Shown piece by piece: positions 20,081 through 48,852 of a DNA stretch of 48,852 nucleotides (the first letter of the stretch is position 1; every line of letters starts with the position of its first letter). The notes under the pieces were generated by a model. That model had not been told where the DNA came from. It saw nothing but the letters and a program-made list of their open reading frames with translations, and did not search any database. This DNA comes from Candidatus Polarisedimenticolaceae bacterium (GTDB lineage Bacteria; Acidobacteriota; Polarisedimenticolia; Polarisedimenticolales; DASRJG01). Both the position numbers and the translations under genes were made by a program. Where the stretch lies: positions 1-48,852 of the forward strand of contig DASVAW010000144.1 in the NCBI GenBank assembly GCA_036376135.1. Reading direction: 5' to 3'.

Positions 20081-20284
20081 CCTGGCCTCCCTCACGCGAC
20101 CTTCACGACGGACGCTTCTTCTCGTCCAAACGGAGAAGCGGGGCGCCCGGGGTCAGGGAAGCCGAACTCCGGCGGGCTGGACCCGCACCTTGCGGCGACG
20201 GTAGCGGAGGCGTACAAGCTTCCGGCGACGTCGCGCACCATGCCCGGCGTCGACCCGGCCGGTGGCCTGGGGGTCACGAACACG

Positions 20285-33662: not shown

Positions 33663-34640
33663 ATGAGAATCGTCGCTTCGATCGTCCTGGCTGGCTCGAT
33701 CGGTGTCGCGCCCGTGCTCGGCGCGGACACGGGCAGCGTCTGCGTCCACCAGTACGCCCCCGGGAGGGAGTGCACCGGAAACGAGGTCCGGATCGCCAGG
33801 ATCGCGCCGGTGAGCCTCGTCGAGGACTGCGCATCGGGGGATCCGGGAACCGCCCAGGCGGTCTTCCGGGTATGGGTCTCGGCCGGCGCCGCGAGCCAGT
33901 ACGACATCGGGCTGTTCGTGGCGCTGGACGGGGGCAGCGCCCTGAGCGGCGCGAACTGCCTCCACGACTACCTCGAGCCGCCTCTGGAGACCTCGCCCGC
34001 CTACGGCGACGTCGACGGAAACGGCCGGCCCGACCTCTCCTCCGGTCCGTGGTGGAACGGCGAGCCGTTCGATCCCGTGGACGACTGCGGGGACCTCGAG
34101 GGCGGAACGGACGCCATCAAGACGCTGATCTCCGTTCGATTCGCCTGCGCGGACAGCAACCTCGACGGGATCGTCGACTTCTCGACGTGTTCGTCCTGGA
34201 GCGCCGGCACGACGTCGCACTGCACCAGTCTCGGGGGCGCGGTTCCGGGCGGGAACCCGAGGTGCGGCTGCAACGTCGTGGAGACGGGGGTTCCGATGCC
34301 CGGGGCCGCGGTGGCGTCGGGACGGGTGGCGGGACTGACGGTCGCCCGTGACGGCTCGGGTGGCTTGCTCCTCTCGTGGGCGGCCTCCTGCACCGCGACG
34401 GACGACGACTACGCCGTCTACGAGGGCACCCTCGGCGACTTCACGAGCCACGCGAGCGTGCTGTGCAGCACCGGCGGAGCGACCTCGGCCACGGTCCAGC
34501 CCGGACCCGGCGATCGGTACTACCTCGTGGTGCCGCGCAGCTCCCAGCGGGAAGGCTCCTACGGAACGAGCGGCGCCGGAGCGGAGCGCCCCCCGGCGAC
34601 GAACGCCTGCGTTCCCCAGCTGGCGCAGGGCTGCTCGTAG
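33663..34640 (+). CDS. Exported protein with dockerin-like/LTD-like N-part and shared C-terminal module
   Basis: 325 residues. Signal peptide (IVASIVLAGSIGVAPVLGAD), then a ~200-residue beta-rich domain. It contains paired acidic motifs (DVDGNGRPDLSSG, SNLDGIVDFSTC) that resemble EF-hand/dockerin-style calcium sites, and many Cys. The last 104 residues (34326-34637) are the clearest copy of the shared module: LLLSWAASC, DDDYAVYEG, DRYYLVVP, EGSYGTSGAGAERP and a final Cys-Ser. Function unknown; secreted or surface. The ATG at 33663 is preceded by GGAGAGG. Confidence 0.75.
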   Translation: MRIVASIVLAGSIGVAPVLGADTGSVCVHQYAPGRECTGNEVRIARIAPVSLVEDCASGDPGTAQAVFRVWVSAGAASQYDIGLFVALDGGSALSGANCLHDYLEPPLETSPAYGDVDGNGRPDLSSGPWWNGEPFDPVDDCGDLEGGTDAIKTLISVRFACADSNLDGIVDFSTCSSWSAGTTSHCTSLGGAVPGGNPRCGCNVVETGVPMPGAAVASGRVAGLTVARDGSGGLLLSWAASCTATDDDYAVYEGTLGDFTSHASVLCSTGGATSATVQPGPGDRYYLVVPRSSQREGSYGTSGAGAERPPATNACVPQLAQGCS

Positions 34641-34667
34641 CGGCTCCGGGCCGGCGTCGATCGAACG

Positions 34668-34673
34668 TATACT
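34668..34673 (+). promoter_or_regulatory. -10 box of the beta-lactamase-fold hydrolase gene
   Basis: TATACT, 34 bp before the ATG at 34708, with an AGGAGG in between. Same hexamer as at 2231 and 7858, but here with a normal leader. Confidence 0.45.
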
Positions 34674-34707
34674 CGCCGGCATCGCGCGAACGAGGAGGCT
34701 TCCGCCC

Positions 34708-36411
34708 ATGCGCATCGTGTCGGCAATTCTCGCCTCCGCCGCCCTGGTCGGACCCGCACGCGCGCAGGCGCCGAAGCCGGTCGTGCCCGACGACGTGGCG
34801 TCGAGCATCCGTGCCCGCGTCGAGTCCGGGGTGATGCCGGGCATCGTCGTCGGGATCGTCTCTCCCGGTGGAGAGACCTACCACTCCCAGGGCGTGCTCG
34901 AGGTCGGAAAAGCCGGGCGGGTCGACGAGGACACGATCTTCGAGATCGGCTCGATCACGAAGGCGTTCACCGGCATCCTGCTCGCCGACATGGCGCGACG
35001 GGGGGAGGTCAAGCTCGACGATCCTGTCGCGAAGTACCTCCCCGCCGAGGCGGCGCCCCCGCGCGAGGGGGAGCGGCAGATCACGCTCCTCGACCTCGCG
35101 ATGCAGCGGTCGGGGCTGCCGCCGATGCCGGACAACCTGGCGCCCGCCGACCCGGCCGATCCGTACGTGGACTACGGGGCCGAGCGGCTGTTCGCCTATC
35201 TGCCGACGGCGAAGCTCGCGCGTCCGATCGGCTCGGCCTACGGGTACTCGAACCTCGGCGTGGGGCTGCTCGGCCACGCGCTCGCGCGGGCGGCGAAGTC
35301 CGACTACGGCACGCTCGTGCGCGAGCGCATCGCGGTTCCCCTCGGCATGCCGGCCACGGCGATCGACGTCGCACCGGCGCTCGCGCCCCGGCTCGCCCAC
35401 GGGCACGACACCTCGGGCGCGAAGCCCGCGCCCGTCCCGGCGTGGACGTGGAAGCCGACGTCGAGCCTCGCGGGGGCGGGAGCGCTGCGCTCGACCGCCC
35501 GGGAGATGGTGCGTTTCCTCGCGGCGAACGCGGGGCTCGGCGAATCGAAGCTCTCGGGGGCCATGCGCGATGCGGCGCAGGAGCGCGGAGACGCCGGTTC
35601 GCCGAAGATGGCGATCGGCCTGGGCTGGCACCTCCGCAAGTCGGATGCCGGCACCCTCGTCTGGCACAACGGCGGAACCGGAGGATTCCACTCCTTCTGC
35701 GCCTTCGACCCGGCGACGAAGACGGGGGTCGTCGTCCTCGCGAACGGCAACGGCAGCATCGACGACATCGGGATCCACCTGCTCGACCCGAAGTCCCCGC
35801 TGCAGGAGGTCGCCGCGGCGCTGACGGTCGCCGAGCCGAAGCTCGCCCGGCTCGACGGGTACTACGACCTGGGCGGCGGCACGACCATCCACGTCACCCA
35901 CGAGGGGACGCAGCTGTACGCCCGGTTGACCGGTCAGCAACGTCTGCCCGTCTTCGCACGTTCGGAGACGAGGTTCTTCTACCGTGCCGTTCCCGCGGAG
36001 CTGGAATTCGACGTGCCGGCCGAAGGGGTCGCCGGACAGGTGACGCTCCATCAAGGCGGACGCCGGATGCCCGCAACGCGGCTGGCGGCGGACGCGGTGC
36101 CCAAGGAGCGCGTCGAGATCCAGGTCGATCCGGCGGCCCTGGCGGAGTACGTCGGAGCATACGAGCTCGCCCCGGGAGCCGTCCTCGACTGCGCGATCGA
36201 GAGCGGACGGCTGGCCTGCCGGCTGACCGGCCAGCCCCGTTTCCCGGTCTACGCGGAGTCGCCGTCGGTCTTCTTCTACAAGGTCGTCGACGCGACCCTC
36301 ACGTTCACGCGCGACGCGGCGGGGAAGGTCGACGCGGTCGTCCTCCGGCAGGGGGGCATCCAGCAACGGGCCGCGAGGATGCCGGAGGCCGCTCCGGCGC
36401 GCGAACCCTGA
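34708..36411 (+). CDS. Serine hydrolase, class C beta-lactamase fold, with C-terminal DUF3471-like repeats
   Basis: 567 residues. Signal peptide (LASAALVGPARAQA). The catalytic set of the penicillin-binding-protein/AmpC fold is complete: SxxK as GSITKAF (S82, K85), YxN as YSN (Y180, N182), and HxG as HNG at 320-322. After residue ~385 come two related beta domains (LDGYYDLGGGTTIHVTHEG and YVGAYELAPGAVLDCAIESG) that match DUF3471-type tails. It acts in the periplasm as an esterase, D-peptidase or beta-lactamase; the tails favour an esterase or peptidase. D-peptide cleavage would fit the adjoining amide-ligase operon, but that is only inference. It converges with that operon, 18 bp apart. Confidence 0.88.
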   Translation: MRIVSAILASAALVGPARAQAPKPVVPDDVASSIRARVESGVMPGIVVGIVSPGGETYHSQGVLEVGKAGRVDEDTIFEIGSITKAFTGILLADMARRGEVKLDDPVAKYLPAEAAPPREGERQITLLDLAMQRSGLPPMPDNLAPADPADPYVDYGAERLFAYLPTAKLARPIGSAYGYSNLGVGLLGHALARAAKSDYGTLVRERIAVPLGMPATAIDVAPALAPRLAHGHDTSGAKPAPVPAWTWKPTSSLAGAGALRSTAREMVRFLAANAGLGESKLSGAMRDAAQERGDAGSPKMAIGLGWHLRKSDAGTLVWHNGGTGGFHSFCAFDPATKTGVVVLANGNGSIDDIGIHLLDPKSPLQEVAAALTVAEPKLARLDGYYDLGGGTTIHVTHEGTQLYARLTGQQRLPVFARSETRFFYRAVPAELEFDVPAEGVAGQVTLHQGGRRMPATRLAADAVPKERVEIQVDPAALAEYVGAYELAPGAVLDCAIESGRLACRLTGQPRFPVYAESPSVFFYKVVDATLTFTRDAAGKVDAVVLRQGGIQQRAARMPEAAPAREP

Positions 36412-36429: not shown

Positions 36430-37779
36430 TCAGCGGCGCAGGTACTGGCTCTTCTCGACCGCGCTCGAGAGCTCGACGCCGGAGAGGCCGAGCCCGAAGG
36501 CGAGGCCGATCGCGAACATCGTGCGGCGCAGCCGGCGGTCTCCCACTCCGCGCGATCGAGATCGCAACGAGGCCACCTTCACGGACGCGAGCGTCTCGCT
36601 CGACCGGATCAGGTCGAGGGTCTCGCCCCGTGCGGACCGGGTGAGAACGACGGCGCAACCTTCCTGCGAAAGGTGCGGTTGCACCGCCCGCCGTCGCGCG
36701 GCCACCAGGACGACGCGTCGCGGTCCAAGCTCTTCGAGGAGCCTTTGGGCGTGCGGGTTCTCGGCGCCGACGATCACCGCACCGGAGGTGGCCGCGACGG
36801 CCACGTCGATCCCGAGCCGATACTCGGCCGGGTCGCCTCCGCCCTTCGGTTCGAGGACCGCCGCGACGCTCGCGTGGTCCAGCCGCAGCCCTCGGGCGAC
36901 GATCGTCCGCGGGGAGAGGGCACACACCAGTTTCTCCACGCGCGGGTCCCCGAGCAGAAACCGGGCGCCGGCCCCGCGACCGTGCGCGTTGCGATCCACC
37001 GGTTTCCCGGAGACCGTGGTCTCCTGTCGCGTCGCGAGACCGACCGCGCTGCCGGATGCCCGGAGCAACCCTTCGAGGCTCCTTCCCACCGCGCCGGTGC
37101 CGCGCTCGCCCACGATCAGCGCGGTGGGGAGAAGGGCGGGCACCCCCACCGGGAAGGCCGTCTCGAGGATCGAGTCGGCGGAGTCCGCCGGGTCCGACGC
37201 CGAGACGACGCGCTGGAGCGCCCCCTCGCCCAATCGCAGGTACGAGCCGGCCAAGGGCTCGCAGGGGATGCCGCGCCGCCTCGCCGCGACCGCCAGGGCC
37301 GCCGCCTGGGGGGACCATCGGCGCCGGCGCGCGCGGCGCTCGAGCTTGGTCCTCAGTGCGCCGAAGTGGCCTTCGCGGTCCGGCGCGGAGGGATGGATCC
37401 CGGCGGCCGTCAACGCCAGCACGCCGGCGAGGGCGACGCGGGCGGCCGCGCGCGACACGCCGCCGGAACGAGACTCCCAAACGAGGTCGACGACTCGCGA
37501 GGAGGAGGGATCGCGGACGATCGTCGCGAATGCGGGTCCGTCGGAGGAGAGCATCGTACCCGCCACGGCGCGCTCGACCTCGAGGATCGCCTCGAGCAGC
37601 GCCTGTTCGAAGGGAACACCCGCGTCCCCCGTGCCGCGCCCCGCGAGGCCGCGAAGGTCCACACGCTGGGTGAAGACGGTCGAGCGGTGATGGACGTTGC
37701 AGCCGCGCAGGATGCGGCCCTCGAGGAGCCGGGGCTCGGCCCTCGCAGGCGTCGGCAAGGCGTTCCCCCTCGAGCTCAC
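36430..37779 (-). CDS. Cyanophycin-synthetase-like protein lacking the ATP-grasp domain, with degenerate Mur-ligase-like domain
   Basis: 449 residues against ~870-900 for CphA. Residues 15-150 resemble the CphA N-terminal domain (RILRGCNVHHRSTVF, FEQALLEAI). Residues 155-212 resemble the short stretch that in CphA leads into ATP-grasp (AARRRGIP, LGEGALQRVVSASDPADSA). The ATP-grasp body is absent. From 215 a Mur-ligase-like part begins: LIVGERGTGAVG where CphA has GTNGKTTT, then SAVGLATRQETTVSGKPVDR, GDPRVEKLVCALSPR and VARGLRLDHASVAAVLEP. The P-loop Lys is gone, so ATP binding is doubtful. A hydrophobic segment near the end may contact the membrane. The GTG start overlaps the upstream stop (GTGA). 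It could be a scaffold, sensor or partner subunit. Confidence 0.7.
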   Translation of the reverse strand: MSSRGNALPTPARAEPRLLEGRILRGCNVHHRSTVFTQRVDLRGLAGRGTGDAGVPFEQALLEAILEVERAVAGTMLSSDGPAFATIVRDPSSSRVVDLVWESRSGGVSRAAARVALAGVLALTAAGIHPSAPDREGHFGALRTKLERRARRRRWSPQAAALAVAARRRGIPCEPLAGSYLRLGEGALQRVVSASDPADSADSILETAFPVGVPALLPTALIVGERGTGAVGRSLEGLLRASGSAVGLATRQETTVSGKPVDRNAHGRGAGARFLLGDPRVEKLVCALSPRTIVARGLRLDHASVAAVLEPKGGGDPAEYRLGIDVAVAATSGAVIVGAENPHAQRLLEELGPRRVVLVAARRRAVQPHLSQEGCAVVLTRSARGETLDLIRSSETLASVKVASLRSRSRGVGDRRLRRTMFAIGLAFGLGLSGVELSSAVEKSQYLRR

Positions 37780-39299
37780 GGGCGCTCCGATCCTGTGCTC
37801 GGGCCGGGGGAGTACCGGAGCCCGCCGACTTCGGCGTGAGCGGTCCAACCGCCGCCGGGCGACGGCGGCCGGACGAGCGAGCGGGAGATGTCGAGCGGGG
37901 CGGGCCAGTGGTCCGCCGCGCAGGGCGCACCCGCGCAATCCCCCCAGGAAACACGGCGAACGATCGCGTTCGAGCCGTCGCGAAGTGCGACCACGTCGCC
38001 GCCGTTCGAGAGGCTGAGGCCTCCGGTGGCCCACTGCACCTCGGCGCCGCCGAATCGACCCGTCGGCACGCCGCCGCCGAAGACGACGAGCGTTCCGCCG
38101 GGAGCCAGCGCGCGGCCCACCGGGAAGACGTGGCGCTCCGGGTCCTCCGCGTCGCCGAGCGCCCATCCCGTGAGACAGACGGGCGTCCGGCCGGTATTGG
38201 CGATCTCGAGGAACTCGTCTTCGGAAGGATCGCGGACCCCGTCTCCGTTGGCATCCCCGGACGCTCCGGGCGGAGGGTCGGCGAGGATCTCGGTGATCAC
38301 GAGGCCTTCGCCCTCGCCGGCTCGGCTCGGCGCGCACGGCGTCTCCTCGGGAGCGAACAGCAGGAACCCCGCGGAGGCCAGCACCCGCGCGGCGTCGTGG
38401 GCGGCGCGAGGTACCGTCGCCATCCTCCAGCCGAACGGGGCGTGCAGCTCCTCGGCCTTCGCCTGGGCGACTCCGAAGTAGAACCGGCCGCGCTCGAGGC
38501 GGGTCGCGCCCTGCGCCTGCGCCTCGGGGGTTCCACGAACCAGTTCGTCGCTCTCGGCGGTGGTCGTGTCGCGCTCACCGAGCAGCACGACGAATCGCAT
38601 CGCGAAGAATCCGCGAAGGTCTTCCGGCTTCACCGGGCTTCCGCGGAGGCCGTACGGCACCGTGTTCCAGCGCGGTTCCGCGTCGGTGGGAAGGGTGTAC
38701 CAGCCCGCATTCGCCGCCACCGCGCCGAGCGCGCGCGCTCGGGGAAGGAACGTCAGCAGCCGGTGGGTGAACTGGGCTCCCGCGCTGTGCCCGAAGAGGT
38801 AATAACCCCGCTGGCTTCCGCCGAGGGAGCCTCGGACCGCATCGAACAGGCGCTCGATCTCCGCATAGAGGTAGTCCTCGGGATCGCGCCAACGACCCGC
38901 TCGCATGACTCCGAACGTGTAGTCGGTGCCCTTCGGATAGGCTTCCTTGCCGAAGTGGGGCGCGACGACCAGCGCCCCGTACCGCTCGGCCACCGGAGCC
39001 GCGGCGCGGACGTAACGCTCGGCGTCTCGGCTCGCGCCGTGCATCACGAACCAGATGGGCCCGCTCGAGGGATCGAACGAGCGGCCGCGATAGACCCACG
39101 CGGTCAGCGTCCGGCCCTCCTTCGTCGCGAAGGCGACCCTGCCGAAGCCCCGTTCGGAGAGCGCCGACGCATCGACCCACTTCGCGACGGGATCGGTGTC
39201 GCGCTCGGCCTCCGGGGGTCGGGCGCAGGCGACGAGGGAGGGGGCGGTCACCGCCGCGGCCAGGACGAGCCTCGCGACCCAGGGTGCGGGGCGGCTCAT
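37776..39299 (-). CDS. Lipoprotein alpha/beta hydrolase with C-terminal lamin-tail domain
   Basis: 507 residues. The lipobox LVAC puts the lipidated Cys at 25. The alpha/beta hydrolase (about 40-320) has an oxyanion-region HG in WFVMHGASRD and nucleophile elbow GHSAGAQ (S172), resembling PHB-depolymerase/esterase families; the catalytic His is probably in PRAAHDAARV. Residues about 335-490 are a lamin-tail domain (LVITEILADPP, FLEIANTGRTPVCLTGWALG, TLVVFGGG), a beta-sandwich found in secreted proteins. It is likely periplasmic or surface-anchored and may cut ester or amide bonds in the operon product. It shares FxxSAGAQFxHR and AGWYTxP with the other hydrolase of the operon. It overlaps its neighbours by ATGA upstream and GTGA downstream. 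Confidence 0.85.
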   Translation of the reverse strand: MSRPAPWVARLVLAAAVTAPSLVACARPPEAERDTDPVAKWVDASALSERGFGRVAFATKEGRTLTAWVYRGRSFDPSSGPIWFVMHGASRDAERYVRAAAPVAERYGALVVAPHFGKEAYPKGTDYTFGVMRAGRWRDPEDYLYAEIERLFDAVRGSLGGSQRGYYLFGHSAGAQFTHRLLTFLPRARALGAVAANAGWYTLPTDAEPRWNTVPYGLRGSPVKPEDLRGFFAMRFVVLLGERDTTTAESDELVRGTPEAQAQGATRLERGRFYFGVAQAKAEELHAPFGWRMATVPRAAHDAARVLASAGFLLFAPEETPCAPSRAGEGEGLVITEILADPPPGASGDANGDGVRDPSEDEFLEIANTGRTPVCLTGWALGDAEDPERHVFPVGRALAPGGTLVVFGGGVPTGRFGGAEVQWATGGLSLSNGGDVVALRDGSNAIVRRVSWGDCAGAPCAADHWPAPLDISRSLVRPPSPGGGWTAHAEVGGLRYSPGPSTGSERP

Positions 39300-41200
39300 T
39301 CCGCCGCCGACCTTCGCGCGGCCAGGGACACGACCTTGGCCGCGCTCGCGTCGGGGGCGCTCCCCGTCCGGACCGTCGCGGCGCCCAGGCAGCGCCGGGC
39401 CGCCTCGTCGATGATCCGTCGCATCAGGGCGGGGAACGTGTAGCCCGCCGCCGCCGCCGCGGTGACGAACGCCCCCCGCCTGTCGAAAAGGTCGACCCAG
39501 CGGATGTCGAGGACGAACGGCTCGCCGAACGGGGAAAGGCGGATGTCGATGCGCGCGTAGTCGCGGCACCCCGCGGCGGCGAAGGCGAGGCGGGCGCATT
39601 CGCGAACCCGTTCCGCCTGCGTCTCGTCGAGCGGCGCCGGGCAGATCCGGGTCCGCTCGTCCTCCGAGTCCTCGAGGAGCGGAAGGCACTCGAGGCTCTC
39701 GTTCCCGAGAACGGACGCGAGGATCCTCCGTCCGCGAACGATCTCCTCCACGACCGCGGGCTGGGCGTGATGACGCCGGATCTCACGGATCGCCGCCTGG
39801 AGCCTCTCCCGATTCCGGACGACGATCCGGGACGCGTCCGGCTCGAACCGCGGGCGTACGGCGAGCGGGAAGTCGAGATCCACGAACGCCTTGGGATCCG
39901 AGACCGTGCGGCACCGCGGCACCGAGACCTGCGCCTCGCCCAGCAGCGTCATCAGGACGAACCGGTCCGTCAACTGGGCCTGCGCCAGGGGGTCGGGGCC
40001 GGTGTAGGGGACGCCCGCGAGCTCGAGCATCGCCGGCACGTGGGCGAACCTGCCGCGGCCCTGCACGCCCGTCGCGAGGTTCAGTACGATCCCGCCCGGC
40101 GATCCCCTTCTCGGGTCCGGCGGCAGGTAGGCGGCGAGCTCGCGAAGGAGCGTCACGTCGCCCTCCAGCACCTTGACCCGGAACCCCTGCGCGCGCAGCG
40201 CGTCCACCGGCCGCTGCACCGACTTGGAGAGGTACTTCGCCGGTGTCCGGGGGCCGAGGCGGCCGATGAACCGGCTGCTCTCCTGATTGCGGACGACGGC
40301 GACCCTCGGTCTCTCGGAGGCGCCGAAACCCGCTCCCTCGACGAGCCGCGTCAGGCGCGCGGGCCAGTCCTCGAGCAGGCGAATGTCCAGGAACTCGGAG
40401 ACGAAGACGATCGCGATCAGCTCCGTGAGGATCAGCTCCGGAAACTGGTAGGCGATCGGGGCGATCACCCGGTCGACCAGCGCGATGAGCAGGGCCAGCG
40501 CGATCGTCCATCCCGCCCGCCAGGCCGCCGTGACCGCGTTGTCCTGCTGCAGGGTCTTCGCGACCCCCTCGGCCAGCATCGCCATGATGATGACCGGGAA
40601 AAACGCGACACTCCAGACCGTTTCCGAACGGAGCCACGGTGCGATGAGCACGGCACCGAGCATGATCGCCGCGGAAAGGCACAGGATGACCGCGACGCGC
40701 GCGTACAGCGGGAGCCGGATGCGGCGGAACCAGGGGCGGATCGCGACGATCGTCCCGACGACGACCGCCATCAGGACGAGGCTCGGGACCAATCCGCTCG
40801 CCCGGAAACCGATCGCGATCAGGATCGCCCGGAAGCCGAGGACCCGGATGCCCAGGGTCAGGCGCGCGATCGCGATGAACAGGGCGCCCGTCGGGAGCAT
40901 GAGCAGGTAGAGGATCGAGGGCCGGTCGCTCGCCGGGATCCACGCGAGGGTGAACCACTGCTCGAGGAGCTCGCCGAACTCGCGGAACGGACCCAGGCCG
41001 AACCCGTGCAGCGATTCACCGCCGGGAAGGGCCAGGATGCGGCAGAAGACCATCCCGAGCGGGAGGCACCCCAGCGCCGTCAGCACGGCGAGCGGGATGG
41101 TTCCGAGATGCCCCTTCCGCCGGACCAGCCGCCACCCGCTTTCGGCCGGGCCCAGCTCGAGCGCCGCTTCCTGCGCCGGCTTCGCCCCCTCGAGGTCCAC
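39296..41200 (-). CDS. 7TM domain fused to D-Ala-D-Ala-ligase-like ATP-grasp domain
   Basis: 634 residues. Residues about 30-285 carry seven or so membrane helices resembling the 7TM domain usually attached to an inactive transglutaminase (EGVAKTLQQDNAVTAAW, FPELILTELIAIVFVSEF). Here the transglutaminase part is missing and an ATP-grasp ligase follows directly (298-600): IVLNLATGVQGRGRFAHVP, LELAGVPYTGPDPLA, VVEEIVRGRRILASVLG, YARIDIRLSPFGEPFVLDIR. Several catalytic positions differ from Ddl: the DK pair is DR (412-413), the ATP Lys of VKP is Arg (449), and the metal-binding E-x-N is D-I-R (565-567). It may be a weak ligase or a sensor. The GTG start lies 6 bp after the HlyD-type gene. Confidence 0.78.
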   Translation of the reverse strand: MDLEGAKPAQEAALELGPAESGWRLVRRKGHLGTIPLAVLTALGCLPLGMVFCRILALPGGESLHGFGLGPFREFGELLEQWFTLAWIPASDRPSILYLLMLPTGALFIAIARLTLGIRVLGFRAILIAIGFRASGLVPSLVLMAVVVGTIVAIRPWFRRIRLPLYARVAVILCLSAAIMLGAVLIAPWLRSETVWSVAFFPVIIMAMLAEGVAKTLQQDNAVTAAWRAGWTIALALLIALVDRVIAPIAYQFPELILTELIAIVFVSEFLDIRLLEDWPARLTRLVEGAGFGASERPRVAVVRNQESSRFIGRLGPRTPAKYLSKSVQRPVDALRAQGFRVKVLEGDVTLLRELAAYLPPDPRRGSPGGIVLNLATGVQGRGRFAHVPAMLELAGVPYTGPDPLAQAQLTDRFVLMTLLGEAQVSVPRCRTVSDPKAFVDLDFPLAVRPRFEPDASRIVVRNRERLQAAIREIRRHHAQPAVVEEIVRGRRILASVLGNESLECLPLLEDSEDERTRICPAPLDETQAERVRECARLAFAAAGCRDYARIDIRLSPFGEPFVLDIRWVDLFDRRGAFVTAAAAAGYTFPALMRRIIDEAARRCLGAATVRTGSAPDASAAKVVSLAARRSAAE

Positions 41201-41206
41201 GGCGTC

Positions 41207-42460
41207 CTACTCGGCCTTGCGAATCGCCACGACCGCCGACAGACCCGGCACCAGCTCCGGAGGCGGCTCGTGGAGCCGTATCCGCACACCCACGACCGGA
41301 GCGCTGCGCATCCTCGAGAACCGGGGCTGCGGAACCTGGGCGTCGGGAATCTCGAAGTCGGTCGAGAGGCCGATCTTGTCCACGACGCCCGCGAACTCGC
41401 GGCCAGGCAGGGAGTGGAAGCTCACCGTCGCCACGCTGCCGACGCGGACCTTCCCGATGTCGTCCTCGTCGACCCACGCCTCGATCCACACGTCCCGGCC
41501 GAGCCACATGGCGAGGATGGGCTGCCCGGCCTCGACCGATCCGCCGGGCTGGACGACCCGCCGGACGATCGCCCCGTCCTCCGGGGCCCGGATCGACGTC
41601 CCGTCGAGGTCCGCCTCGGCGCGCGCCAGCCTGGCGCGCGCGCGCAGCAGCTCCGCCTCGAGCACGCCGACCTTCCCTTCCTCGATCGCGATGAGATCGG
41701 CTTCCAACCGCACCGTCCGCCCCGCGGATTTCGCGGCGTCGCTGTTGGCACGGGCTTCGTCCAGCCGCGCCTCCGCGGTCAGTCGACGGGTCTCCGCGTT
41801 GCGCACGTCCTCACCGGACACCACGCCGTCCCGCTCGTACAGGGTCTGCCGGTTGGTGTGGTCGCGGCGGGCTTCCTCCGCGCGGATGCGTGCCTCCTCG
41901 GCCTGGGCCTGCGCCGCCGCGACCTTGGCCGCCGCCTCCTCCGCGGCCTGTCCGACGCGGCGCCGCTGGTGCAGGACGTTCAGCTGCTCCATGTCGATCG
42001 TCCGCTGCAGGGCCTCGACCTCGGCACGGGCCTCCTGCACCTCCGCGACGAGGTGCCGATCCTCCAGCCGCACGATCACCTGGCCGGCCCGAACCCGGTC
42101 GCCGACGTCCACCTCGACCGACTTGACGAGACCGGTCAGGCGCGTCCCGATCTCGGCGACGTGACCGCGGACGGAGGCGTTCTTCGACGTCACGTGGTTG
42201 GACTGATACCGCACCCAGAAGAAGAGCGGAGCCGCGAGGCCGAGGACCAGGAGCGGGACCAGCGCCCAGCGGGCGCGTTGCCAGATCCGTCGCAGCCCCT
42301 CGGCCGGCACGGGCGGCGCGCCGAGCAACCCGTGAATCGGATCGACCTCCGCTTCGGCCGGGGCGGCGGGGGGTGCCCCGGGCGCGGCCTCCTCCGGTCG
42401 AGTCCACTCCGTCGGCGCGGCGCCTCGGTCGCGGCGGCGCAGCTTGCCGGGATCTCCCAT
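41207..42460 (-). CDS. HlyD/EmrA-type membrane fusion protein
   Basis: 417 residues. A long cytoplasmic Pro/Ala-rich tail (1-60) and one transmembrane helix (about 65-83) lead to a lipoyl half-motif (LTGLVKSVEVDVGDRVRAGQ) and a long alpha-hairpin coiled coil (VAEVQEARAEVEALQRTID to LLRARARLARAEADLDG). The second lipoyl half is SIRAPEDGAIVRRVVQPGGS, followed by the barrel domain. Such proteins bridge inner and outer membrane in export systems; no ABC or MFS pump is encoded in the operon. The only polytopic partner here is the 7TM-ATP-grasp protein. The ATG shares a base with the upstream TGA (TGATG), so translation is coupled. Confidence 0.88.
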   Translation of the reverse strand: MGDPGKLRRRDRGAAPTEWTRPEEAAPGAPPAAPAEAEVDPIHGLLGAPPVPAEGLRRIWQRARWALVPLLVLGLAAPLFFWVRYQSNHVTSKNASVRGHVAEIGTRLTGLVKSVEVDVGDRVRAGQVIVRLEDRHLVAEVQEARAEVEALQRTIDMEQLNVLHQRRRVGQAAEEAAAKVAAAQAQAEEARIRAEEARRDHTNRQTLYERDGVVSGEDVRNAETRRLTAEARLDEARANSDAAKSAGRTVRLEADLIAIEEGKVGVLEAELLRARARLARAEADLDGTSIRAPEDGAIVRRVVQPGGSVEAGQPILAMWLGRDVWIEAWVDEDDIGKVRVGSVATVSFHSLPGREFAGVVDKIGLSTDFEIPDAQVPQPRFSRMRSAPVVGVRIRLHEPPPELVPGLSAVVAIRKAE

Positions 42461-43335
42461 CAGACGCTCGACTCGGCGACGGCAGCCTCCGCCCGAAACG
42501 CTTCCAGCCTCGCCGGGGGGGCGCCGAACAAGGATCGTCCGACGCGGTCCACCAGCTCCCCGCGCGTGCAGAACGAGGTGAAGGAGTGGTCGATTCCGGG
42601 AACCTCGGTCAGCGAGACGAGCGGCTTCAGGCCGTATGCGGTGGCGGCGTCGCGCATCGCGGCGACCCAGCTTCGGGCACGCTCCACACGGTTGGTGCCC
42701 TGCTGCGCGTCCAGGCGCTCGCTGCGGCGCACGTTGCTCGAGCCCACGTCGTTGTGCCCGATGAGCACCTCCACGGGGACGCGGAGGAAACGCTCGGGGT
42801 TGAAGTTGACGCCCTCGAGCGAACGGCCCGGGCGGATGCCGTAGGGGTACTTGCGCGAGTGGTCGGGGAACGTGTACCAGCCCGCGGCCGCCACGGCGGC
42901 TCTCGCCACCCGATCCGGATGCGCCATGAGGTAGCGGTGGGCGAACTGCGCCCCGGCGGAAAAGCCGAACAGGTGGATCTGCGCGACGTCGGCGCCGCTC
43001 AACGAGCCCGCCTCCGCGAGGAACCGATGCAACAACAGGTCGACCCGATGGCCGCGATGGCGCCGGCCGAGACGCTGGTAGTCCATGTGCTGGTCCGGCG
43101 TGAAGACCGGGGCGACGAGGACGGCCCCCTGCTCCTCGCACAGAGGCGAGAACACGACCGTGTGCTCGAGGACGTTTCGGGAGATCCCGTGCACCGCGAC
43201 CAGCACCGGCGCGCCGGGAGCGGCGGAGGCCGGCACGTAGATGAGGTACTCCTGGGTCGGGTCGCTCCGCAGGGCGCGCAGGAGGATCCGGCCTCGGGGC
43301 AGCGACCAGCGGGGGTGGGGTCGAGTGGCGGCCAT
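42460..43335 (-). CDS. Alpha/beta hydrolase (PHB-depolymerase/esterase-like), no signal peptide
   Basis: 291 residues. Nucleophile elbow FGFSAGAQ (S126), oxyanion-region HG in LVAVHGISRN near 49-50, and a likely catalytic His in PGIDHSFTSF. It is related to the hydrolase half of the lipoprotein encoded two genes downstream (SAGAQFAHR, AAGWYTFPD). There is no signal or lipobox, so it should be cytoplasmic. The pair may process the same bond on opposite sides of the membrane. One base separates its ATG from the DUF1611 stop, and its stop overlaps the HlyD-type ATG. Confidence 0.85.
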   Translation of the reverse strand: MAATRPHPRWSLPRGRILLRALRSDPTQEYLIYVPASAAPGAPVLVAVHGISRNVLEHTVVFSPLCEEQGAVLVAPVFTPDQHMDYQRLGRRHRGHRVDLLLHRFLAEAGSLSGADVAQIHLFGFSAGAQFAHRYLMAHPDRVARAAVAAAGWYTFPDHSRKYPYGIRPGRSLEGVNFNPERFLRVPVEVLIGHNDVGSSNVRRSERLDAQQGTNRVERARSWVAAMRDAATAYGLKPLVSLTEVPGIDHSFTSFCTRGELVDRVGRSLFGAPPARLEAFRAEAAVAESSV

Positions 43336-43336
43336 C

Positions 43337-44560
43337 TCAGGCGGCTCCGATCCATCCGGACGCCTTCGCCTCCAGATGCTGTTGTGCCCGGCCGAGCAGC
43401 TCGATCGCCACTTCCGGGGACGCCAAGCCCTCGCGATCGTGGATGGGGAGCCCCGTGGCCTCCCTGGCCTCGGCGATCTGCAGGGGCGCCGCCGTGAGCA
43501 CGCCGCTGAGAGCCAGCAGGGGGGTCGGCCGCTCCCGGAGCCATTGGACCCCCGCGAGCGCACCCATGGAATCCTGCGCCGCGAGCACGATCCCGCCGAC
43601 GAGGCGGGAGAAACCCGGGCTCTCGAGAAGCGCGGCCGTCTCCCGCTGCAGCACGCCGTCGGCGATCTCGAGGACGACGGCGTCCACGCCGTGGGACGCG
43701 ACGTGGCTCACGAGCGACACCAGGGCGCCCTCGATCTCCTCCGCGCCGACCCGGTACGTCGAAGCGAGGCCGACGTCCGTGAAGTCGAGCACGGGGTCGG
43801 CGCCCGCGTCCTTGAGCCAGAAGTAGTCTCCGCCCGCGCCCGTTCCCGTCACCTTGGCGTATCCGACGCGCAGGCCGGCCGCGATCAGCCCGCGAACGAG
43901 ATAGACCGCGGACTGGGTCTTTCCCGAGTCCATCGACGTACCGACCACGGCGACGGGGGTGGGCCTGTACTCCGTGGGCGGTTCGACCGCCGGGAGGGCG
44001 TAATCGCGGAGGTTCATGCGTCGGCCGGAAGGGTCGCTCAGCAGGCCGATCGGGGTGATCTGCGTGGGCGCCTTCATGCTCGCGTGCCACGAAACCACGC
44101 GCGAGGCCATGCCCCCACCCGCGACGAGCTGGCAGGGCCCCAGTGTCTCCGGGACGAGCGCTTCGTACTGGTTCGACGCGTATCGGTTGCCGTAGGCCAC
44201 CACGATCTCGTTCCCGACGAACAGGTGGCGCCGCCTTCCATTCACCATGTGCAGGTCGCCGTGCTGGCCGATGGCGTCCACCCGCGCCAGGAGGAGGTCC
44301 CCCGCCTCGGGTCGGCCCTTGGGCGCCAGAATCCCCGTCGCCGCCCCTTGCGGGACGCGCCGCGTGGTGAACGCCCATGAGGCCAGACGCAGACGGATCC
44401 GATCCCGACGCTTCTGATCCATCGCGCCCTGAAGCTCCGGGCGCGCGGCACGCATGTCGAGGTAGGGCGTAGGGGGCGGCGGGGACGACGACGTTGCGCT
44501 CGCCTCGGACGGCGAAGGGTCGGGTACCTCCCCGAGTCGGCGCGACGAATCCTGGTCCAT
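43337..44560 (-). CDS. DUF1611-family P-loop protein
   Basis: 407 residues. The first ~45 residues are Pro/Ser-rich and variable. A beta-rich N-domain follows (GDLLLARVDAIGQHGDLHM, LFVGNEIVVAYGNRYA). The C-domain is a P-loop NTPase with Walker A VGTSMDSGKTQSA (G207-T215) and a Walker-B-like VVLEIADGVLQ. This is the DUF1611 architecture; some members (DgcN-type) are reported in D-glutamate metabolism as N-acetyltransferases, and others neighbour dipeptide epimerases. A role in preparing an amino-acid or dipeptide substrate for the downstream ligase-like proteins is possible. It is the first gene of the operon. ATG 44560 is preferred over a TTG one codon upstream. Confidence 0.8.
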   Translation of the reverse strand: MDQDSSRRLGEVPDPSPSEASATSSSPPPPTPYLDMRAARPELQGAMDQKRRDRIRLRLASWAFTTRRVPQGAATGILAPKGRPEAGDLLLARVDAIGQHGDLHMVNGRRRHLFVGNEIVVAYGNRYASNQYEALVPETLGPCQLVAGGGMASRVVSWHASMKAPTQITPIGLLSDPSGRRMNLRDYALPAVEPPTEYRPTPVAVVGTSMDSGKTQSAVYLVRGLIAAGLRVGYAKVTGTGAGGDYFWLKDAGADPVLDFTDVGLASTYRVGAEEIEGALVSLVSHVASHGVDAVVLEIADGVLQRETAALLESPGFSRLVGGIVLAAQDSMGALAGVQWLRERPTPLLALSGVLTAAPLQIAEAREATGLPIHDREGLASPEVAIELLGRAQQHLEAKASGWIGAA

Positions 44561-44858
44561 CAACGTACCTGTCTCGACGGGGCGGCCCCCCGGCGTCGGA
44601 AGAGACTTCTTCGGTATGGCTTCTCGACCCCAATCCGGTACGCCCGCCGGACCGCTCCGGCAAGCGATCTCGACGCCGACGGGCGCAAAACAACGTCACG
44701 ATAGCGCGATCGGATCCCTTCCGCGAGACGAGTCTCGAAATGGACGTCATTGAGAAGGAGAGCAGTGCCGAGAATCACGCCTTGTTAAACTTCCGGGAGT
44801 TGGGCGCGTGGTAGGCTGCGGTCTTCCTCGACGTAACCGGCAATCCGGCACCAGACGC
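44561..44858. other. 298 bp divergent regulatory region
   Basis: This gap separates the six-gene operon from the ATP-grasp gene and has visibly more A/T than its surroundings around 44690-44800. It holds a CGAGAC-GA-GTCTCG inverted repeat at 44724-44737 and a -10-like TAGGCT at 44812-44817 for the plus-strand gene. A 24-codon frame from 44738 has no ribosome-binding site and is not called. Confidence 0.45.
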
Positions 44859-46004
44859 ATGAATCTCATCGGGTTCCATTACAACCGTTCGCTCCTGGAC
44901 CGGCGCTGGCGGCTCAGTCCGTCGGTGGTCAATCGGGTCGCCCTGATCGACGCGGCGCTCAGGGAGGCCGGGCTGCGACTGTTCGTCTACGGCCCGCAGC
45001 ACGTCCGCGCCGGGACCGACCACGTGGAGGGATGGCTGTTCGAGGACGGCAACTACCTTCCGACGACGGCGGCGATTCCGGTCGTGAACGGCAACTGGAC
45101 GCACCGCACGCGCCGGCTGCTCGAACAGGGGATGGGTTACCAGGAGTTCGGACGGTGGGCCGAAGCGCGGGGGATCCGCATCTACGTCCCCCACGCCTTC
45201 TCGGAGCTGCTGGGAAACAAACACGAGACGTACAAGCTGGTGCGAGGGTTCCACGAGTCCCTGCACCCCCATTGCGAGCTGTACACCCGATCCGAGCGGC
45301 AGCTCGAGTATTTCGTCGAGACCGGGCGCCTCACCTTTCTCAAACCCTGCTCCGGCAGCAAAGGCAACCGGATCATCACCGTTCGTCGGGACACGACCGG
45401 GCTGTCCGTGACCCACTACGAGGCGGGAGCGCGGCGCCGCCACGCGGTGGCGTCGGTACGGGCGGCGGCGGAGTTCGTGCGCGGGCTGGTCGAGGGGAAG
45501 AGGCAATACGTGATCCAGCACGGGGTCGAGACCCTGCGCCACGACGGGTCGACCTTCGACATCCGGGTCACGATGCTGCACGACGGCGACACCTGGAACT
45601 GGCTGCACGAGGTAAGGCGGTCGCCGGAAGGCAGCGACGTCTCGAACGTGAGCCAGGGGGGGAAGACGGTCGTCACGGAGGAGCTGCTCTTCGACCTGCT
45701 GGGCCCCGAGGGTGCGCAGGAGATGCTCTACGAGCTACGGAACGAGTCCTTCGGGCTCGCCGCGTACCTGGAGCGTCTCCATCCCGGCGACATCCTCGAG
45801 GTGGCCTTCGATTTCGCGATCGACCGAGAGGGTCGGTTGAGGCTTCTCGAGATCAACACCAAGCCCGGGCTCGCCGGGATCGGCGCGGACGTCCGCATCT
45901 TCGAGAGGCGGCCCGAGCAGGAGCCGTTGTTCGAGCGCTGGGTGTATCCGCACGCGCGGCACCTCGCCCGCTTCCTCATCCGCAAACATCAGCGCCTGCG
46001 CTGA
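44859..46004 (+). CDS. YheC/YheD-type ATP-grasp protein
   Basis: 381 residues with an intact-looking ATP-grasp core. The ATP-binding Lys is in LTFLKPCSGSKGNRI (K162), the substrate/ATP region is FDIRVTML, and the metal ligands are in RLRLLEINTKPGLAG (E331, N333). An N-terminal domain (FHYNRSLLDRRWRLSPS, EDGNYLPTTAAIPVVNGNW) resembles the YheC/D family, some members of which are spore-coat-associated in Bacillus. ATP-grasp ligases join a carboxylate to an amine or thiol. In contrast to the operon member, its catalytic residues look normal, so it is the best candidate for real ligase activity here. It overlaps the convergent DUF2156 gene by 16 bp. Confidence 0.83.
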   Translation: MNLIGFHYNRSLLDRRWRLSPSVVNRVALIDAALREAGLRLFVYGPQHVRAGTDHVEGWLFEDGNYLPTTAAIPVVNGNWTHRTRRLLEQGMGYQEFGRWAEARGIRIYVPHAFSELLGNKHETYKLVRGFHESLHPHCELYTRSERQLEYFVETGRLTFLKPCSGSKGNRIITVRRDTTGLSVTHYEAGARRRHAVASVRAAAEFVRGLVEGKRQYVIQHGVETLRHDGSTFDIRVTMLHDGDTWNWLHEVRRSPEGSDVSNVSQGGKTVVTEELLFDLLGPEGAQEMLYELRNESFGLAAYLERLHPGDILEVAFDFAIDREGRLRLLEINTKPGLAGIGADVRIFERRPEQEPLFERWVYPHARHLARFLIRKHQRLR

Positions 46005-46918
46005 ATGCCCCGGTACTCCGCGTGCATGCGTGCGGGGCGCAGGCTGTCCTTGAGCTGCCGGAGCCCCGGACGGCCCGCGTCCGAACCGTCGTTGACGAGA
46101 TCGAAGTCGCGCAGTCGCAGGAGAAAGCTGCGGCGCTGGAAGTAGGCGAGCCCCGGTACGTCCTCGTCGGACTTGGCCTCGAAGAAACACCCGACCCCGG
46201 GGCGGATCTCGCCGCCGAACGCGAATCCCGCGAGGCGACCGTCCACGAGGATCACCTCGCCTCTCATGTCGGGCTCCCGGAGCCTTCCCGCCAACTCGAG
46301 GGCACGCCGGGCCGTGCCCGCGCCCCCCTCGGTTCCGTGCGCGGCGCGGTGCCGGTCCCTCCAGCGCCGGAGGAGGGCGCGGCAGTCCTCGGCGTGTTCC
46401 TCCGAGTAGGGCAGGACCTCGACGCGGGAGAGCCCCTCGACCCGCGCAACCTGGCGCCGAAGCGTCCGGAGGTTGTTCCCGCTCAGGTTCAGGTAGGTCT
46501 CCGGTCGATACAGGTACTGCATCCGGCGCGGCTCGAGACGCAGGCGATCGTGTTCCGACAGCGTCCCCGCGTCCTTCTCGTCGATGCGGACGATGCGCGC
46601 GGAGCGGTCGCCGTTGAACGCGTTCGCGCGCTCGAGGCAGCGCGCCAGGACGGGGAGGCTCGGAGGCAGCGGGGGAAGGTAGAGGTCCAGGCGGGCTCGT
46701 GCGTCGCGGACTCTCCAACGGAAAAGGCACAGGGAGTCGCCGTCCTCGGCCACGAGCACGGCGCTGCTCCCGGGGCGATGCTGCGCGAGCAGGTGGGGCC
46801 AGTAATAACCGAAGCCGGTCTGTTCTCCGGCCCGGACGGCGGCCTTGTAACGGTCGCGGTCCCCGTCGTCGAGGACCTTCAACCCCGCGAGAGTGCCCGA
46901 TAAGTCGAGAAACGCCAT
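45989..46918 (-). CDS. DUF2156 (phosphatidylglycerol-lysyltransferase C-terminal-like) protein
   Basis: 309 residues of the GNAT-like fold. Signatures: CLFRWRVRDARARLDLYLPP in the first half, QYLYRPETYLNLSGNNLRTL, and the C-terminal NDGSDAGRPGLRQLKDSLRP, which matches the family's N-x-x-x-D-x-G-x-x-GLR-x-x-K pattern. Characterised relatives transfer aminoacyl groups from tRNA to lipid or peptide. It is a stand-alone paralogue of the C-terminal half of the kinase fusion at 20285-21748. With the convergent ATP-grasp gene it gives this locus two possible amide-bond-forming enzymes. It lies 50 bp from the beta-propeller gene, which is transcribed first. Confidence 0.8.
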   Translation of the reverse strand: MAFLDLSGTLAGLKVLDDGDRDRYKAAVRAGEQTGFGYYWPHLLAQHRPGSSAVLVAEDGDSLCLFRWRVRDARARLDLYLPPLPPSLPVLARCLERANAFNGDRSARIVRIDEKDAGTLSEHDRLRLEPRRMQYLYRPETYLNLSGNNLRTLRRQVARVEGLSRVEVLPYSEEHAEDCRALLRRWRDRHRAAHGTEGGAGTARRALELAGRLREPDMRGEVILVDGRLAGFAFGGEIRPGVGCFFEAKSDEDVPGLAYFQRRSFLLRLRDFDLVNDGSDAGRPGLRQLKDSLRPARMHAEYRGIQRRR

Positions 46919-46968
46919 GGCGTGGGGGATTCTAGCCAACCGCTCTCGGATGCTCCCCGCCGCCGCGC

Positions 46969-48852
46969 TCAGAAGGCATATCCCAGGATCTCGCGATCGC
47001 CGGGGCGGTAATACACGCGGCGGGCGACGTCGTCGACCTCGTAGCTCGGGACCTTGTCCTTGCCGATGGGGATCGTGCCCCGGACGGCGCCGTTCGACTT
47101 GTCGACCTGGGCGATCCCGAAGCCGTTCTCGAGCGGGACCATCATGAACTGGAAGTCCCGGGCCTGGGCGGATGCCTGGAATCGACGTCGCGCGAGCGTC
47201 GCATACGACGCCGACGCGCCCGCCGCCGCATCGGCGATCTCCGCGTAACCCCGGGACAACTCGTCGGCGAGCTCGCGCTCCAACGTCCCGTCGTCCCGGG
47301 TCGCCGCGTATTGGCTCAGCGCGGCGCTTCCCGCGCCCGCCTGCGCGGAGGCCATCCCCATGCGGACCGACTGGGCGATGTACAGCGCGCGGACCCACGC
47401 GGGGTCGCGCGGAGCGGGGTAGTGACTGCGGAACAGGACTTTCCCGTCCAGGTCGAAGCCGACCACGGACTGCGCCCCGATCAGGGTGACCCGGTCCGCG
47501 ACGACCTCGAGCGCCCGCGGGACGTCCCCTCCCTCGAGCGCGACCGATCCCTCCCCGAGCCGCGTGAGCTTCGCCTGCGGCTTGTCGAGCCGCCACAACG
47601 CGCCGTCGTCGCGGGAGAAGACGTAGAGCGACGCTCCCGCGTCGGCCGTGACGAGAGAGTCGGAAACGACGGCGGCGCCGGGGAGCGGCGTGCCGGTGCG
47701 CGGATCGAAGACGTTCACCTCGTGGGTGGTCACGACCAGGACCCCACGCGCGAGCACCTCGGACCGCAGCAGGCGCCCCTTCACCTTCAGCGCCCTTTGG
47801 AACCGGAACGTGCCGGAGGCCACGTCGAGCACGTTCAGCGCGTACACCGTCCCCTTGTTGCTCCAGATGCCGTCCTTCCCCATCGTGACGACGAGGCCGG
47901 CGTCGGTCGCGAGGTGATCGACGATGCCGCCGTCCGACTCGATCCCCTTGCCGTTTTTCCCCCAGGCGGACCGTCCCGTGTCGTACTCGACCAGCCGGAT
48001 CCCGCCATCCATTCCGCCGCCCGAGCTGAGGAGCGCTCCGTCGTCGAGCAGGACGGGGGGGTTGAGCGGACCCTTGACCTTGATCGACTTGGGCCAGACC
48101 GGCGAGCCGTCCTCCAGCCGGTAGGCCGCGTAGGAGGTCTGGACGGGAGGTGCGCCGTTCGTGCTCATGCCCTGCCCCGAGATCTCGGTCCCCACGAGAA
48201 GCAACCCGGGGCGCGTCGCCGGAACGAAGAGGCTCGCGACCCCCGAGCCGTCCCGGTTCGGGATGCGCCAGAGGAACTTGCCGGTCCGGGTGGAGAGCTT
48301 CCAGATCTCCGATCCGGAGGCGAGCACCACGGCGTCGCCGCCGACCTCCATCGGGCGGGACGGCACCGCGGACGGCAGCGAGGACTGGGCGAACTGGGCG
48401 AGCAGCCCGGCCAGCTTCTTCATGCCGGGGGAGGCTCCGCCGCCGACGACCTCGTCGTTCGACCACCGCACCTTGCCCGTGGCCATCTCGGTCAGGAACA
48501 ACTTCAGCGTCGGGTCGTCCTTCTCCTGGCCCAGGATCAGCAGGCCTCCCGTGTCGAAGAGGACCGCGCGCTGGATCGTGTTGGCGATCCCCGCGGCGCG
48601 GGAGTCGAAGACGACGTGGCCGTCCACCGCGTCGAGGACGAGGGAGCGCTCGCGCGCGCGGCCGCAGGCCACGAGGAACAGCGTCGTGCCGTGGAGCACC
48701 TCGAACGATTCCTCGGAGGGGACCTCCAGATCGCCCCGGGTCCACGCGATCGCGCCGCTCGAGGGATCGACGCCGTGAAGGCCGCCGTCCGTGGCGACCA
48801 CGAGCGGTCCCATCGGATGCACCCGCTGCCAGCGGACCGCCTGCTCGAAGCG
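46969..48852 (-). CDS. PQQ-type beta-propeller protein (5' partial)
   Basis: The frame is open through the window edge, so the start is missing; 627 residues are visible. Repeats alternate a hydrophobic strand with D-x-x-x-G-x-x-x-W: GVDPSSGAIAWTR, LDAVDGHVVFDSR, TEMATGKVRWSN, LSTRTGKFLWRI, YRLEDGSPVWPKS, FDPRTGTPLPGA. This is a PQQ-like (WD40-related) propeller, here probably a binding or sensing module and not a dehydrogenase. A helical stretch near the end (LSRGYAEIADAAAGASASYA) resembles a coiled linker. The upstream part could carry a kinase, a signal peptide or a membrane helix. It precedes the DUF2156 gene by 50 bp and may be co-transcribed with it. Confidence 0.75.
   Translation of the reverse strand, partial: RFEQAVRWQRVHPMGPLVVATDGGLHGVDPSSGAIAWTRGDLEVPSEESFEVLHGTTLFLVACGRARERSLVLDAVDGHVVFDSRAAGIANTIQRAVLFDTGGLLILGQEKDDPTLKLFLTEMATGKVRWSNDEVVGGGASPGMKKLAGLLAQFAQSSLPSAVPSRPMEVGGDAVVLASGSEIWKLSTRTGKFLWRIPNRDGSGVASLFVPATRPGLLLVGTEISGQGMSTNGAPPVQTSYAAYRLEDGSPVWPKSIKVKGPLNPPVLLDDGALLSSGGGMDGGIRLVEYDTGRSAWGKNGKGIESDGGIVDHLATDAGLVVTMGKDGIWSNKGTVYALNVLDVASGTFRFQRALKVKGRLLRSEVLARGVLVVTTHEVNVFDPRTGTPLPGAAVVSDSLVTADAGASLYVFSRDDGALWRLDKPQAKLTRLGEGSVALEGGDVPRALEVVADRVTLIGAQSVVGFDLDGKVLFRSHYPAPRDPAWVRALYIAQSVRMGMASAQAGAGSAALSQYAATRDDGTLERELADELSRGYAEIADAAAGASASYATLARRRFQASAQARDFQFMMVPLENGFGIAQVDKSNGAVRGTIPIGKDKVPSYEVDDVARRVYYRPGDREILGYAF

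Follow-up and report, generated by a model that had tools for sequence, protein, structure and literature searches.

A six-gene operon joining a 7TM-ATP-grasp fusion protein to an HlyD-type adaptor and two hydrolases in distant bacterial phyla

The closest described relative of the operon reported here is found in Pseudomonas, where RloB, a 7TM protein of family PF14402, and RloC, an ATP-grasp protein, act in one pathway with the secreted peptidase RloA (PMC12239564). The effect of losing the secreted RloA peptidases is undone when RloB or RloC is lost as well, RloA cleaves polyglutamate in vitro, and osmotic tolerance, cell shape and biofilm are all under the control of the Rlo operon (PMC12239564). 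The operon that we analysed, in a 48,852-nucleotide contig from a Candidatus Polarisedimenticolaceae bacterium (the window), likewise brings together a PF14402 7TM region, an ATP-grasp domain and a secreted hydrolase, but its architecture differs. RloB has an inactive periplasmic transglutaminase domain, whereas in the window protein D a short stretch is all that separates TM1 from the 7TM region, and the ATP-grasp part, a separate protein in RloC, is fused to the 7TM part in D. RloA is a retropepsin-like aspartic protease, of which the window operon has none, its E being a serine hydrolase, and the genes A and B and an HlyD-type adaptor are added. The NCBIfam RloB model matches D over the 7TM part only, at 42 bits against a cut-off of 900.

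EmrAB-TolC type exporters offer a second comparison. EmrA-class adaptors work with an inner-membrane transporter and normally serve transport; C is an EmrA-like adaptor, and a TolC homologue lies near the operon in Nitrosomonas. These exporters use an MFS pump, however, which the window operon lacks, leaving the 7TM protein D as the only membrane partner. To our knowledge no molecular role has been assigned to the 7TM_transglut family, and ATP-grasp gene neighbourhoods were reportedly surveyed by Iyer et al. in 2009. The operon is of a known kind, that of biosynthesis or export operons with 7TM_transglut and ATP-grasp parts. As a set, A-F is undescribed in the open-access literature searched, where we found no published account of the six-gene operon; an earlier note on this DNA, which knew of no described system with these genes, agrees with this.

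Operon layout and gene products

The ORF list contains all six genes, on the minus strand between 36430 and 44560 (Table 1), and every junction is a gap of 1-6 bp or an overlap of 1-4 bp. The TGA stop of A (43339-43337) is followed after 1 bp by the ATG of B at 43335, and B and C overlap by 1 bp within a common TGATG (42462-42458). A gap of 6 bp separates the stop of C at 41207 from the GTG of D at 41200, while D and E have ATGA (39299-39296) in common and E and F have GTGA (37779-37776). A begins at ATG 44560, with an alternative TTG at 44563. The six tightly joined genes are thus as the earlier note described them; in the window's lineage the extent that it gave the unit is too narrow, as G and H are also kept beside A-F in Acidobacteria bacterium Mor1. 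Scans for promoters, terminators, Rfam families and tRNAs gave nothing of use.

Table 1. Genes of the operon (A-F) and its neighbours (G, H), in window positions.
Gene	Position	Strand	Description
A	43337..44560	-	beta-domain plus SIMIBI/dethiobiotin-synthetase-like P-loop protein, distant DUF1611 relative
B	42460..43335	-	alpha/beta hydrolase without signal peptide
C	41207..42460	-	HlyD/EmrA-type periplasmic adaptor
D	39296..41200	-	N-terminal PF14402 7TM region plus D-Ala-D-Ala-ligase-like ATP-grasp domain, Ddl metal ligands lost
E	37776..39299	-	secreted alpha/beta hydrolase, lipobox LVAC, C-terminal lamin-tail domain
F	36430..37779	-	cyanophycin-synthetase remnant: short N part plus Mur-like part
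G	44808..46004	+	YheC/D-like ATP-grasp ligase, divergent from A
H	45989..46990	-	GNAT-fold aminoacyltransferase-like protein (LPG_synthase_C)

In the domain scan no family reached its cut-off with A; MobB scored 19 bits and DUF1611 (PF07755) 15.9 bits against a Pfam gathering cut-off of 25 bits, below which other members of the A subfamily likewise fall. A PDB sequence search with A gave no match. The model of A (pLDDT 89) combines a beta-rich N-terminal part with a SIMIBI P-loop domain, the fold of which aligns with 2g0t, 2obn and DgcN (7xrj) at Z scores of 16.1, 14.4 and 14.3. Dethiobiotin synthetases, TM0796, the DUF1611 protein and DgcN all lie at Z 14-16 against the model, which supports a predicted ATP-dependent enzyme without implying a particular reaction. 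The P-loop, GTSMDSGKT, is intact, with its G and K invariant in 25 rows. A is dethiobiotin-synthetase-like and only a distant DUF1611 relative, so that the earlier assignment to DUF1611 survives for the fold and distant kinship and fails for family membership. Two genomes belonging to the window's phylum have distant relatives of A flanked by argG-like and argC-like genes of the same strand (L061:1390-2490 and L065:1501-2553; genes read from translations); these relatives may supply an N-acylglutamate step of arginine synthesis.

Domain scans place B among PHB-depolymerase/esterase-like alpha/beta hydrolases with an intact Ser-Asp-His triad, and the protein is predicted to be cytosolic. E also has an intact triad and carries a C-terminal LTD (E 2e-17). 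Together with the lipobox of E, the triads bear out the earlier description of two hydrolases, one of them a lipoprotein. The Ser, Asp and His are kept in all 25 aligned hydrolases, comprising B, E and a third relative, J, which is present in Mor1, OFTM108 and Bordetella. Members of the J family (L076:18210-19532, L088:8630-9805 and L092:8794-9795) are located near the operon or near loci pairing A with an ABC exporter. Because PHB-depolymerase-type esterases are the named families closest to them, these hydrolases could as well cleave ester bonds as amide bonds.

F resembles cyanophycin synthetase (CphA) residues 460-712 (E 2e-21) and aligns with its N-terminal and Mur-like parts. In contrast to CphA, however, the whole ATP-grasp domain is absent, the Mur-type P-loop GTNGKTT is replaced by GERGTGA with loss of the P-loop Lys, and the C-terminal Mur lobe is missing. 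The protein is well described as reduced and cyanophycin-synthetase-like; its reading as an amide ligase is unlikely to hold without the ATP-grasp domain and P-loop Lys, and the enzyme looks dead.

Conservation of the gene set across phyla

GTDB species genomes were scanned with A, which gave 25 loci, and the window proteins were then mapped onto these. A-B-C-D-E occur in the same order in Mor1 (Acidobacteriota), two Nitrosomonas, Oxalobacteraceae and SZAS CTRL-64, an unplaced proteobacterium. Other copies are less regular: the contig of an incomplete planctomycete locus ends within C, a partial copy in Methylococcaceae UBA2778 has no match to B, and the deltaproteobacterium OFTM108 has a second copy of B and no match to E. 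A locus filed under Sphingomonadales (L085) has matches nearly equal to those of the Oxalobacteraceae locus L084; it is probably mis-binned and was therefore left out of the count. Five of the six genes recur in one order in many genomes, so the homologues are not scattered and the conserved system proposed in the earlier note is upheld. A-F is a real and widespread operon, its genes being shared as one set among distantly related phyla.

Mor1 (genome G005) has the sole full-length relative of D among 60 relatives and retains A-F with flanking G and H. Identity between the window and Mor1 is 32% for F, 51% for E, 55% for D, 63% for C, 64% for B, 66% for A and 58% for G, and each of the two H copies in Mor1 is about 50% identical to the window H. 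Pairwise distance matrices for A-E correlate at r 0.88-0.98, a level reached in 0 of 2000 permutations; because the matrices compare related sequences, the correlation reflects shared inheritance rather than physical contact. The window A is 64-70% identical to planctomycete A, as close as it is to Mor1 A, which points to a probable transfer between phyla.

G matches PF14398 at 126 bits against a cut-off of 26.8 and keeps the E-x-N metal motif (EINTKPG in the window) in all four rows aligned. It lies beside the operon in four loci (two Acidobacteriota, the planctomycete and the deltaproteobacterium) and, the window and Mor1 apart, just 2 of the 22 genomes tested had it, both times beside the operon. 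H, in one or two copies, adjoins the operon in the window, Mor1 and OFTM108. Judged by their sequences, G and H are intact ligases and in some lineages part of the unit, where they are the likely producing ligases just outside 36430-44560. G was not found in betaproteobacterial genomes and H was not seen at betaproteobacterial loci; the ligase that makes the compound therefore varies, or the compound has another source than a ligase. In both Nitrosomonas a TolC homologue directly precedes A, and these are the only two loci where one is adjacent; of the parts of an HlyD-type tripartite exporter, the adaptor is present in the operon. A CapA gene (PGA_cap) follows E in three loci, and the planctomycete has a 2,3-aminomutase-like gene near G.

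The 7TM-ligase fusion and the probable exchange of an ABC exporter

Residues 83-278 of D match PF14402 (7TM_transglut, E 3e-21), and the domain scan also found Dala_Dala_lig_C (E 1e-15). The cytosolic domain has the Ddl ATP-grasp fold (Foldseek E 5e-18, sequence E 1e-29), but the metal-binding E-x-N motif of Ddl is replaced in all 11 orthologues, by D-I-R in the window, G-I-A in Mor1, G-V-H and others, and the ATP-binding KP has become RP or similar. The amide-ligase fold named in the earlier note is thus present while the catalytic residues are not, and the ligase domain looks dead. The 7TM part was modelled with low confidence (pLDDT about 55), and the matches in a fold search with D were all taken up by the ligase domain. 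Most ATP-grasp matches in the search for relatives of D were other ligases and were set aside, and no relatives were present in the viral contigs searched.

Among plasmid proteins, those closest to D are rhizobial ATP-grasp proteins that share 36-39% identity with it across residues 299-608; the three that were aligned all keep E-I-N. In Bradyrhizobium barranii the ATP-grasp gene overlaps a 7TM gene, 34% identical to the 7TM region of D, and the pair lies downstream of lysine 2,3-aminomutase and gamma-glutamyltransferase (GGT) genes; on this plasmid (L124:5279-10044) the aminomutase, GGT, 7TM and intact ATP-grasp genes are closely spaced or overlapping. An aminomutase likewise adjoins the ATP-grasp gene in Mesorhizobium; of these genes, the ATP-grasp gene was the only one detected in the neighbourhoods inspected in other rhizobia. 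The rhizobial ligase alone recurs on many rhizobial plasmids. The B. barranii operon, for which no paper was found in the open-access literature, has a gene for each half of D, one next to the other (34% and about 39% identical), and its ATP-grasp protein, unlike D, keeps the metal ligands; A, B, C and E are missing from it. With the halves encoded separately in rhizobia and the ligase there intact, D appears to have arisen by joining a membrane partner to a ligase whose activity was lost later.

C is HlyD/EmrA-like (TIGR00998, E 4e-41), in keeping with the trans-envelope adaptor of the earlier note, and apart from it the operon has one integral membrane protein, D. What that account missed is an ABC exporter of about 560-610 aa that stands directly downstream of A relatives, often with B, in Desulfobacterota, Myxococcota, Actinomycetota, Bordetella, Acidobacteriota and Rhodobacterales. 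These A-ABC, A-ABC-B and B-A-ABC operons, of which we found no description in the open-access literature, have the same A subfamily as the window operon but an ABC exporter where the latter has HlyD and 7TM proteins. Three B-A-ABC operons are on Rhodobacterales plasmids (L126:7205-10729, L132:5914-9421 and L133:5138-8543). In a maximum-likelihood tree of 36 A proteins, three of them with neither label, the 14 adaptor-plus-7TM rows form one clade (support 100/99); with the arg-operon relatives taken as outgroup, ABC rows surround it. On this tree 2 label changes suffice, compared with a mean of 12.4 when the labels are shuffled. The simplest reading of this phylogeny would be one replacement of the ABC exporter by C and D, and from the nested position of their clade C and D probably do the exporter's job. 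As some ABC proteins of this class have non-export roles, the replacement suggests export and does not prove it.

Proposed function and competing readings

Our leading interpretation, tentative but quite possibly right, is that the operon encodes a module for exporting a small amide-linked compound, of isopeptide or acyl-amino-acid type, across the envelope and trimming it. A ligase would make the compound (G and/or H in the window, other enzymes elsewhere), and A and B, as ATP-dependent P-loop enzyme and serine hydrolase, would finish or edit it in the cytosol. D would then bind it by the dead ligase domain and pass it through the membrane region, C and a TolC-type channel would carry it across the periplasm, and E would cleave or edit it outside, with F serving as a putative non-catalytic binding or scaffold protein. 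We infer both the amide linkage and the outward direction; the former is favoured because of the amide enzymes nearby, namely G, H, cyanophycinase, CphA-like proteins and CapA. The earlier note had offered making, exporting, trimming or sensing an amide-linked envelope compound. Export and trimming remain the best reading, and D and F, which lack the catalytic residues, are unlikely makers.

The retained fold and lost catalytic residues of the D ATP-grasp domain would also suit a receptor that senses a cytosolic dipeptide-like ligand while C and E remodel the envelope, and the related Rlo operon does control osmotic tolerance, cell shape and biofilm (PMC12239564). We consider this unlikely, as there is no kinase, regulator or second-messenger gene as a constant part and an EmrA-class adaptor points to transport; that C and D stand in the place of an ABC exporter is our main reason to prefer export over sensing. 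It is distinctly unlikely that the operon serves self-protection, detoxifying and pumping out an amide or ester antibiotic or a toxic intermediate. The EmrA-type adaptor, the presence of a hydrolase on each side of the membrane, the patchy occurrence with passage from phylum to phylum, and the likeness of the D cytosolic domain to D-Ala-D-Ala ligase, a drug target, would all fit, but G and H travel with the operon in some lineages, which suggests production, and no resistance or defence family passed its cut-off in NCBIfam, nor did PADLOC return any match. Common, broad families such as HlyD and the alpha/beta hydrolases would also suit a loosely assembled operon whose general envelope and metabolic genes share no one product; the same order across phyla and the agreeing distance matrices of all five genes A-E make this disfavoured reading very improbable.

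A module that exports, anchors or recycles cyanophycin or beta-Asp-Arg units is improbable as well, even though F is what remains of a CphA, the operon has CphA-like neighbours lacking the P-loop Lys in OFTM108 and Nitrosomonas D5, and the gene after D in OFTM108 encodes a cyanophycinase with a score above the cut-off. The genome of the window and several other operon-bearing genomes have no cyanophycin synthetase, and the linked CphA-like proteins appear to have no working Arg-adding domain, although that of OFTM108 keeps the ATP-grasp motif. The CphA of operon-bearing Oxalobacteraceae is uninformative. Genome-wide co-occurrence of operon and CphA in betaproteobacteria was striking at first and was dropped, because the background is already 148 of 195 genomes with CphA above the cut-off in the family that holds the Oxalobacteraceae genomes.

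Within the export reading, a more specific and doubtful proposal is that C and D are a new kind of exporter, with the 7TM region as transport channel and the fused dead amide ligase as cytosolic substrate receptor, which replaced the ABC exporter once and afterwards passed as a unit from phylum to phylum. If true, a former ligase would have become a receptor, an unusual use of a dead enzyme. Taken together, the exporter exchange, the two-gene rhizobial form in which the ligase is intact, and the genetics of Rlo suggest that 7TM proteins of this family may move the products of ATP-grasp ligases across the inner membrane, where a secreted hydrolase trims them.

Elsewhere in the window, a serine beta-lactamase-family protein with DUF3471 (34348-36411, plus strand) is convergent with F, with no operon link seen, and a 1250 aa ORF (17996-21748, plus strand; start putative) has a chloramphenicol-phosphotransferase-like domain at residues 780-937.
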